This document shows, piece by piece, positions 17,193 through 35,583 of a stretch of 35,583 nucleotides of DNA (position 1 is the first letter of the stretch; each line of letters starts with the position of its first letter). Origin of the DNA: a virus; IMG/VR virus record IMGVR_UViG_3300044655_000284, positions 1 to 35,583 of that record. One strand, 5' to 3'. The position numbers and the translations under genes are program-made. The notes beneath the pieces were generated by a model, which was not told the DNA's origin, did no database searches, and saw nothing but the letters and a program-made list of their open reading frames with translations.

Positions 17193-17358
17193 ACCACTCC
17201 CCCCAGTTTCCTTTGTTATTGCGTTTCCATTGTTCAACAAAGCCATTTAGTAAATCACTATCAATTTGGTATTTTGATAGATATTCTCTAAACTTTGCTA
17301 ACCCCCATTGATGTCGCCACTTGCATAGTTGTCTGACACCGCATTGGTATTTATTCAA
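17185..17358 (-). CDS. Small conserved-looking protein, TTG start
   Basis: A 57-aa frame (LNKYQCGVRQLCKWRHQWGL at the start, ending NWGEWFD). It opens with TTG at 17358, eight bases inside the stop region of the replication-associated gene, and runs across the long-frame start of the next gene. The dense Trp/Arg/Tyr pattern is protein-like and resembles small proteins I associate with phage replication clusters. The start codon is inferred, as no ATG is available. Confidence 0.55.
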   Translation of the reverse strand: MNKYQCGVRQLCKWRHQWGLAKFREYLSKYQIDSDLLNGFVEQWKRNNKGNWGEWFD

Positions 17359-17725
17359 TCTCCATACCCATACGCATCATACATTTCTTCTTTAAGGTTT
17401 CGTAGCTGTCATACCCGTTACCTAGTATTCCTAGTTCTCTAGCCTTGTTCTCAATACCTTGTTGGCTAAACATCCATGACCTATCAACCTTTGGCTTTGG
17501 CGGGGTCATATCCAAAACATCCTGAAATCTAAGCCCGTTAATCCACGATGCGGGGTACGGGATATAGTCTATTTCGGTTTGTTTAATCTGCCAGTATCTT
17601 AGGTGTTTGGGCAAGGCTTCTAAGGCTTCACGCTTTTCAAGTTGCGTGAGCTTAGACCAAGCGTGTTCAGCTTTCTTTTTAGCCACTTTTTTGGGCCAAT
17701 ACATCCAAAATTTCTCAAACTCCAC
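17351..17725 (-). CDS. Replication-associated protein (DnaT/O-like C-terminal domain type)
   Basis: A 124-aa protein starting with GTG at 17725 behind GGGGGA. The pattern FEKFWMYWPKKVAKKKAEHA, then AWSKL, then DYIPYPASWINGLRFQDVL is the block found at the C-terminus of many phage replication-initiation or primosomal (O/DnaT-like) proteins, which bind ssDNA or help load the host helicase. Here it stands almost alone, without the N-terminal winged helix of the longer proteins. With no polymerase or helicase in the genome, it is the best candidate for recruiting the host replisome (inference). Confidence 0.7.
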   Translation of the reverse strand: MEFEKFWMYWPKKVAKKKAEHAWSKLTQLEKREALEALPKHLRYWQIKQTEIDYIPYPASWINGLRFQDVLDMTPPKPKVDRSWMFSQQGIENKARELGILGNGYDSYETLKKKCMMRMGMEIE

Positions 17726-19869: not shown

Positions 19870-19903
19870 AGACAGAAAGAGAAAACCCCTTTGGGTTGCT
19901 CTA
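19870..19903 (-). terminator. Intrinsic terminator of the small-RNA or repressor transcript
   Basis: On the minus strand: GAG-C-AACCC, loop AAAG, GGGTT-TT-CTC, then TTTCTG. The local stem competes with a longer 18-bp pairing to 19951-19968. Either form ends at the same U-rich tract. Confidence 0.6.
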
Positions 19904-20012
19904 AGTTAGACCCGCTTAATAAATGACTCGAAAACATTTAGTAAACGCTCAGAACAACCCAAAAGGGTCTTATGGCTTCGAGTTAAATACTAAACAGGGT
20001 CTAATCTGCATA
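19873..20012 (-). ncRNA. Candidate structured small RNA or attenuator downstream of the repressor gene
   Basis: A minus-strand extended -10 box (TGT-TATACT, 20024-20016) predicts a transcript starting near 20010 and ending at the terminator at about 19873. Segments 19951-19968 and 19885-19902 pair over 18 bp; both deviations from Watson-Crick are G-U pairs only if the RNA is read from the minus strand. Alternative helices exist: 19997-20004 with 19906-19913 (8 bp), 19977-19983 with 19926-19932 (7 bp) and 19988-19994 with 19937-19943 (7 bp). They cross the 18-bp helix, so the RNA can form a pseudoknot or switch between two folds. No known family is recognised. Confidence 0.55.
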
Positions 20013-20015
20013 CAC

Positions 20016-20024
20016 AGTATAACA
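20016..20024 (-). promoter_or_regulatory. Extended -10 promoter for the candidate small RNA
   Basis: On the minus strand, TGT followed by TATACT lies in the bases just after the repressor stop codon. No good -35 is seen at 16-18 bp, which is tolerable for an extended -10 promoter. Predicted start near 20010. Confidence 0.4.
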
Positions 20025-20029
20025 TCAAA

Positions 20030-20269
20030 TCAACGCAACTCAGGCCATATCAACTGGTAACTTTCAGGAAATAAGTCCTTACGGCTTACCAAACCCTTAG
20101 ATTCCTGTTCTAGCAACGCCCCCAAATAAACCATTTTATCGGCTGGAATCCCTGTGTTTTTCCACATGGACACCGCAGGTACGCTAATTTTGCAGATTTT
20201 GGCTATTTTGGTAGGGCCACCCAGTAACTCGATAATTTGGCTATCGGTAAACACTTTTTTCTTACGCAT
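20030..20269 (-). CDS. Cro/YdaS-like helix-turn-helix repressor
   Basis: A 79-aa protein with a basic N-terminus (MRKKK) and a helix-turn-helix at about residues 18-42 (GGPTKIAKICKISVPAVSMW). The signature end, VSRKDLFPESYQLIWPEL, is typical of Cro/CI-like YdaS proteins. It lacks the dimerisation/peptidase domain of full CI repressors. A TTAAG-type operator copy overlaps its start codon, and other copies lie at the three early promoters, so I infer it represses all early transcription and itself. Its ATG coincides with the predicted transcription start, as in leaderless lambda cI mRNA. No integrase accompanies it. Confidence 0.85.
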   Translation of the reverse strand: MRKKKVFTDSQIIELLGGPTKIAKICKISVPAVSMWKNTGIPADKMVYLGALLEQESKGLVSRKDLFPESYQLIWPELR

Positions 20270-35228: not shown

Positions 35229-35583
35229 TTAAGTCCCGTAGCCAGTATCAGGAATGTTAGCGTAACCGATAAGCACCTTCGTTGGGTAGGGTGCAAACGA
35301 CAGATTGGCAGAGCCTTTATCGTTGGCTTTAGCGACATTCAGATAGCGGAAATAGTCTTGTTGCAATGAAGTAGTATCAAAGCCTTTAATTTGGAAATAT
35401 TTAAGTTTTGTACCTAAAACCATGACTGTATCGTCAAATATGGTCGTGTCGGTATCAGCCGTAAAGCTGTTCTTTACTTGGTCGGTAGAACTTCTAGCCC
35501 AACCTTTTGAGCGGTATTCAAAACCTAAATACTCTTGTGTGTTATATGGTGGCCAAATTTGGAACTTATCGCCTAGAATACGC
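35229..35583 (-). CDS. 3' end of the tail-tube/adaptor gene (second copy, cut by right edge)
   Basis: Encodes 118 residues ending YANIPDTGYGT. It aligns base for base with window positions 1-343 (offset 35,240) at about 93% identity. All but two of its codon differences are silent (TGAVKN in the left copy, TDQVKN here). It joins the gene from the left edge in frame and continues into the nozzle-like gene. It is best read as the same locus seen twice through circular overlap, not a paralogue. Confidence 0.75.
   Translation of the reverse strand, partial: RILGDKFQIWPPYNTQEYLGFEYRSKGWARSSTDQVKNSFTADTDTTIFDDTVMVLGTKLKYFQIKGFDTTSLQQDYFRYLNVAKANDKGSANLSFAPYPTKVLIGYANIPDTGYGT
35241..35583. repeat. 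Imperfect terminal direct repeat (partner: 1-343)
   Basis: 343 bp at each end of the window align without gaps and with about 25 substitutions. The 97 bases at the inner side (positions 247-343) are identical. It closes the map into a circle of about 35,240 bp. Confidence 0.85.

Follow-up and report, generated by a model that had tools for sequence, protein, structure and literature searches.

The window analysed here, a whole viral stretch of 35,583 nt (IMG/VR record IMGVR_UViG_3300044655_000284), encodes on its minus strand a structured RNA of a class that is absent from Rfam. Its four-helix architecture is well supported by sequence comparison, and the helices make up two competing folds, as a preliminary description of this DNA had proposed; all four covary among relatives. 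This is a rare case in which each of two mutually exclusive folds has strong covariation behind it, so that a refolding pathway may be read from sequence alone. We tentatively propose that the RNA refolds while it is being transcribed and that it may serve as a conformation-gated terminator ahead of the left early operon. The comparison supports the architecture; this mechanism we infer from it.

Layout and strand of the RNA unit

The unit, a predicted transcript of 139 bases, extends from 5' GCAGA to 3' UCUGUC (19871..20009, minus strand), its boundaries being placed where conservation among relatives stops. Directly past the stop of the repressor gene we indeed observed the extended -10 box that had been described there, TG-T-TATACT (20016-20024, minus), in which TATACT (20016..20021) is extended by TG at 20023-20024 and lies 6 nt ahead of GCAGA. 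Transcription, which we infer, should start at GCAGA. The U-rich end that had been reported after about 140 nt corresponds to the terminator-like tail UUUUCUCUUUCUGU (19872..19885, minus), which shares 19882-19885 with one of the helices (H3, below) and is kept in relatives.

Read 5' to 3' (20009 to 19871, minus strand), GCAGA is followed by segments 1, 2, 3, 4, 2', 4', 1' and 3' and then by the U-rich tail. GCAGA itself (20005..20009) forms the 5' strand of a closing stem, P0, with UCUGU near the 3' end as its partner. Helix H1 joins segment 1 (UUAGACCC, 19997..20004) to segment 1' (GGGUCUAA, 19906..19913), a bulge of the H3/H4 rod, by 8 bp. Helix H2 joins segment 2 (UAACUCGA, 19978..19985), which is hypervariable among relatives, to segment 2' (UCGAGU, 19926..19931) and its neighbours; segment 2' caps H4 as its apical loop and abuts 4'. 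The 18 continuous pairs noticed earlier proved to be the core of a 24-pair helix, H3, formed by segment 3 (19948..19971) and segment 3' (19882..19905), with four G-U pairs; its 3' arm holds a small terminator-like hairpin of its own (19884-19897). H4 is formed by segment 4 (19935..19946) and segment 4' (19914..19925). Three helices had been thought to cross the long one. This is the case for the 8-bp H1, which crosses H3, and for 2/2', which crosses both H3 and H4, but 4/4' is nested within H3.

Folded with its flanks, the minus strand has a predicted energy of -54.1 kcal/mol (z -5.6; none of 200 shuffles equalled it), as compared with a z of -4.1 for the plus strand, and no minus-strand reading frame inside the unit reached 40 aa. 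Over all relatives, G-U pairs outnumber A-C mismatches 198:7 in H3 and 62:5 in H4, a bias first noticed on 42 units, whereas H1 (6:11) and H2 (47:41) have no such excess; the register search behind these counts treats both pair types equally. Because G-U exceeds A-C in H3 and H4, these counts indicate that the RNA is the minus strand. The earlier argument for this strand, drawn from G-U pairs, therefore stands for H3 and H4 and fails for H1 and H2, where nearly all pairs are Watson-Crick. This avoidance of G-U in H1 and H2 is nearly complete in all units of the window's sequence group (group 1), unlike in H3 and H4.

Relatives, covariation and predicted folding order

With the repressor and its 205-aa neighbour as queries, dozens of viral contigs were retrieved for each. 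Blastn with the RNA region found the unit in more than 100 such loci, of which many are paired views of a single contig, and a pattern search built from the 3' arm found it in at least 119 stretches of viral contigs. The 107 distinct group 1 units that were parsed form the set for the permutation and folding statistics below. The unit was present 3' of the repressor in all 58 loci with enough downstream DNA (53 with group 1 units and 5 with units of a second group), three of the 61 repressor loci ending too soon to tell, and apparently all members of a freshwater phage group with an HTVC010P-like terminase have the RNA. It lies about 120 nt past the repressor in many loci, and 300 to 1100 nt intervene in others; despite insertions between the repressor and the RNA, the unit is intact and has its own -10 box. 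Loci L005, L024 and about a dozen similar ones have extra genes at this place, some of which look PAPS reductase-like by eye. The covariance model R1 scored the window unit, which is identical to one of the model-building sequences, at 124 bits (E 1.5e-29).

The promoter-like box is kept across 133 distinct upstream flanks, among which no -35 consensus was found. Its distance to the first G of the unit is 6 nt in 76 and 7 nt in 15 of the 107 distinct units (91 of 107 in all), and this constant spacing across many different flanks supports the -10 box named in the preliminary description.

Scanning 84,980 genomes (species) with the pattern gave one genuine match, on 3.5 kb of DNA assigned to a Bacteroidota MAG, possibly a phage contig that was misbinned; three further matches were rejected as being without the structure. 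The DNA of the region had no match among 50,697 phage records, and the RNA model had none in the searched part of HTVC010P (L264). A plus-strand match of the model (42 bits) reflects the self-complementarity of the unit and is not a separate feature. Rfam 15 gave no match on the window at the gathering threshold and, with relaxed thresholds on the RNA region, only chance-level matches below threshold; no tRNA or tmRNA was found. The view that the RNA was undescribed is in line with the Rfam scan, and no description of such an RNA was found in the open-licence literature.

We assessed covariation by re-dealing the arms among alleles in 5000 permutations, each helix being scored by its best register in the same way for real and permuted pairs. 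The permutation z among the 107 distinct units was 12.8 for H1, 21.4 for H2, 10.5 for H3 and 11.9 for H4, values never reached by permuted pairs, although the permutations take no account of relatedness and z is therefore not a probability. In an alignment of 28 sequences, 19 pairs of H1, H3 and H4 are changed on both sides: seven of eight in H1, seven of twelve in H4 and five of the 24 in H3, in which 97.6% of cells are paired. Together they give 126 double-change cells, as against 38 in shuffles (0 of 500 as high) and at most 16 in register-slid controls that preserve relatedness. For H2, 56 distinct loop alleles were counted among the 107 units, nearly all of them matching their own partner. 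Homologous loci, to which the preliminary description had tied its reading, thus contain compensatory changes in all four helices. The closing stem P0 covaries weakly in group 1 (z 1.6), with a GCGGA/UCCGC variant in L199 and L224. A third conserved alternative helix, 4*/4', was considered and rejected as weak (z 2.1).

The geometry of the unit suggests how the two folds exclude each other. Segment 2 sits 0-8 nt (once 12) ahead of the GACCC of segment 3, and its partner 2' is the apical loop, about 36 bp away. Because of this separation, and by standard A-form dimensions, H2 and a complete H3 should be unable to coexist within one molecule, and likewise neither H1 nor H2 should fit into a molecule whose H3/H4 rod is complete. 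In group 1, none of segments 1 to 4 or their partners overlaps another, such that the competing helices share no strand; exclusion would operate through topology and distance and not through a shared strand, and this topology together with the allele diversity is unusual. The linker from 2' to 4' is 0 nt in 72 of 103 units and -1 in 22 (0 or -1 in 94 of 103), the gap between 4 and 2' is 1-2 nt in 85 of 103, H2 is mostly 7-8 bp long, and 1' comes after 4' without a linker. The arrangement would fit H2 stacked on H4, and H4 on H1, along the uninterrupted strand 2'-4'-1', the short linker spanning the deep groove as in a pseudoknot, and the early fold is probably an H1-H4-H2 pseudoknot or else a pairing between molecules.

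Partition functions of growing chains, calculated for nested structures only with programs that cannot score pseudoknots, predict an order of folding. For chains ending 4 nt into 3', P(H1) exceeds 0.5 in 102 of 107 units and P(H2) in 91 of 107; with the whole 3' arm present, P(H3) exceeds 0.5 in 102 of 107. H4 is predicted in the nascent chain in 15 of 107. In the window unit, the predicted change from H1/H2 to H3 falls between 120 and 124 nt. The energy gap between the two folds of the finished unit ranges from 0 to about 18 kcal/mol across alleles, and we therefore rejected a strictly tuned thermodynamic bistability; it is the folding order, not equal stability, that the alleles have in common.

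Possible functions and known systems

In the refolding model, the phage would carry the unit as a non-coding RNA gene in its own right, transcribed from the conserved -10 box with its start at GCAGA. During synthesis, segments 1 and 2 would first find their partners 1' and 2', and the early structure would probably be a pseudoknot with H1, H4 and H2 stacked on the unbroken strand 2'-4'-1'. Once the polymerase has completed the 3' arm, this arm would pair with segment 3 as the 24-pair H3, ejecting H1 and H2, and the H3/H4 rod with the U-tract would then terminate transcription. By delaying or blocking H3, the early fold could allow a fraction of polymerases to continue into the left early operon, which is co-directional, in a ratio that may be set by a signal, from the cell or from the phage, that acts on this fold. 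The sequence features at hand are a terminator-like hairpin and a U-tract in a leader-like position.

The same covarying pairs could alternatively form between molecules, a self-recognition that we regard as rather improbable. The free 5' arm of one RNA (segments 1 and 2) would bind the 2' loop and the 1' bulge of a second RNA whose H3/H4 rod has already formed. Allele-specific dimers or chains would result, or else accumulated RNA would act on nascent copies. It is consistent with such pairing that the covarying H2 cannot coexist in cis with a complete H3, that the loop geometry is constant, as if a strand bound the loop with H4 intact, that H1 and H2 are so nearly pure in Watson-Crick pairs and that the 56 loop alleles fit their own partners; intermolecular pairs in ROOL, GOLLD and OLE, some of which covariation shows to be conserved, offer a precedent (PMC12286853). 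As an explanation of why the strands are disjoint and H1 and H2 so strictly Watson-Crick, intermolecular pairing is at least as good as refolding. However, the same pairs are possible in one molecule, where energy models favour them in nascent chains, and refolding can also explain the covariation of H2. More doubtful still is the further idea that the hypervariable complementary segments 1/1' and 2/2' let the RNA discriminate its own allele and act as a copy-number or superinfection sensor beside the repressor. If true, a widespread phage group would sense copy number or superinfection with a specificity carried by RNA alone, and the allele diversity makes self-recognition directly testable.

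Other readings give refolding a lesser part or none. A stand-alone small RNA that acts in trans on a host or phage RNA or protein, with refolding needed only for stability or maturation, would suit a unit that has a promoter-like box of its own, ends that may pair, a strong terminator-like structure and a position independent of the adjoining genes. It is nevertheless unlikely, given that the single-stranded segments of the final fold vary most, that the second sequence group has no sequence in common with the first, and that no allele-specific complementarity was found elsewhere in the phage DNA searched; in an antisense target search of the locus flanks, segments 1, 2, 1' and 2' found matches no longer than other phages' alleles did. 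That the unit is no more than an intrinsic terminator belonging to the repressor gene, its extra helices being due to chance or common descent, is very improbable: a terminator-like hairpin and U-tract do lie directly past the repressor, but H1 and H2 are unneeded for termination, yet H2 covaries most, and the unit with its own -10 box persists despite an insert of about 700 nt after the repressor. An element that acts as DNA (a cruciform, a replication origin or a recombination site) is scarcely to be expected. The large inverted repeats, the variable flanks on both sides and the absence of strand bias in H1 and H2 would be compatible with it, whereas the strong one-strand excess of G-U over A-C in H3 and H4, the fixed spacing of the promoter box and the absence of a global GC-skew extreme at the RNA site argue against it.

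Among known systems, the closest kind is a conserved metastable or attenuator RNA, although the phage RNA is a member of no family tested. In hok mRNA, conserved covarying helices that exclude the final fold form first during transcription, and conserved transient and alternative helices are known from hok and the trp attenuator, among others (PMC2891591). The phage RNA likewise has conserved transient helices followed by refolding (predicted, 102 of 107 units), which would take place on synthesis of the 3' arm; unlike hok, it has no reading frame or toxin, and its sequence is unrelated. Like trp-type attenuators, it follows a -10 box as a leader would, and it has helices that exclude one another, one of them terminator-like and with a U-tract. 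It differs in having no leader peptide and, in group 1, competing helices on disjoint strands rather than on one shared strand; read-through in the phage RNA is a proposal.

RNAs of the phi29 pRNA type combine little sequence conservation with a conserved structure and loop pairing between molecules. Low sequence conservation and conserved structure are also features of the phage RNA, whose loops may pair between molecules as well, but location and fold differ, and the phage has an HTVC010P-type terminase and not the phi29-type gp16 ATPase system. The c4 antisense RNA also lies near immunity genes. It is a phage RNA as well (RF01695, P1/P7; PMC2864571), whereas our RNA has no Rfam match and no complementary target in the locus searched. 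GOLLD and ROOL are, like it, phage-borne and without an assigned function, with covariation that includes possibly intermolecular pairs (PMC12286853), but they are far larger (GOLLD often exceeds 800 nt), and oligomers of the RNA described here are hypothetical.

Genomic setting and further sequence groups

The repressor ORF (20030-20269) is YdaS/Cro-like, just under the Pfam cut-off, and matches phrog_35 ('transcriptional repressor'). Left of the unit, on the same strand, are LPD29 and a replication-initiation-like protein (17351-17725, minus; phrog_270, E 8.4e-14). In all eight loci examined the downstream genes are co-directional with the unit, though the gene differs between relatives, and the first of them begins about 90 to 450 nt from the unit; the flanks on both sides vary among relatives. 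With HTVC010P-type pelagiphages, the terminase large subunit shares 43-45% identity. Because the window has a G+C content of about 43%, as compared with about 32% in a freshwater SAR11 phage related to HTVC010P (PMC6811365), the host is probably not SAR11. At the two ends of the window, 1-912 and 35229-35582 encode a nearly identical protein stretch (RILGDKFQIWPPYNTQ...) that differs slightly between them (GAVKNS versus DQVKNS), a repeat that resembles a circularly permuted or redundant assembly.

The second group of units (L003, L004, L006, L018 and L026) is unrelated to group 1 in sequence and has the same kinds of helices. Its site is that of group 1: the promoter-like box on one side and the downstream flank on the other are the same. 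A pattern scan for this group gave 24 distinct regions, 18 of which were parsed; further loci of its RNA are L123, L128, L137 and L266-L296. Covariation among the 18 is weaker than in group 1 (H1 z 2.9, H2 z 4.1), H3, with only three allele pairs, is not significant alone (z 1.4), and P0 gave no covariation (z -0.6). Group 2 also has the layout of H3 and a U-tract, and 2' and 4' partly overlap in it, which makes the layout similar but not identical. One contig, IMGVR_UViG_3300047557_000594 (L176 and L186), carries two different RNA units and is 44,384 bases long, the usual length being 35 kb. What look like further divergent units lie in L129, L122 and L297-L299, the last three judged by eye; L122 has little or no H2. 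These five loci probably represent a third sequence group.
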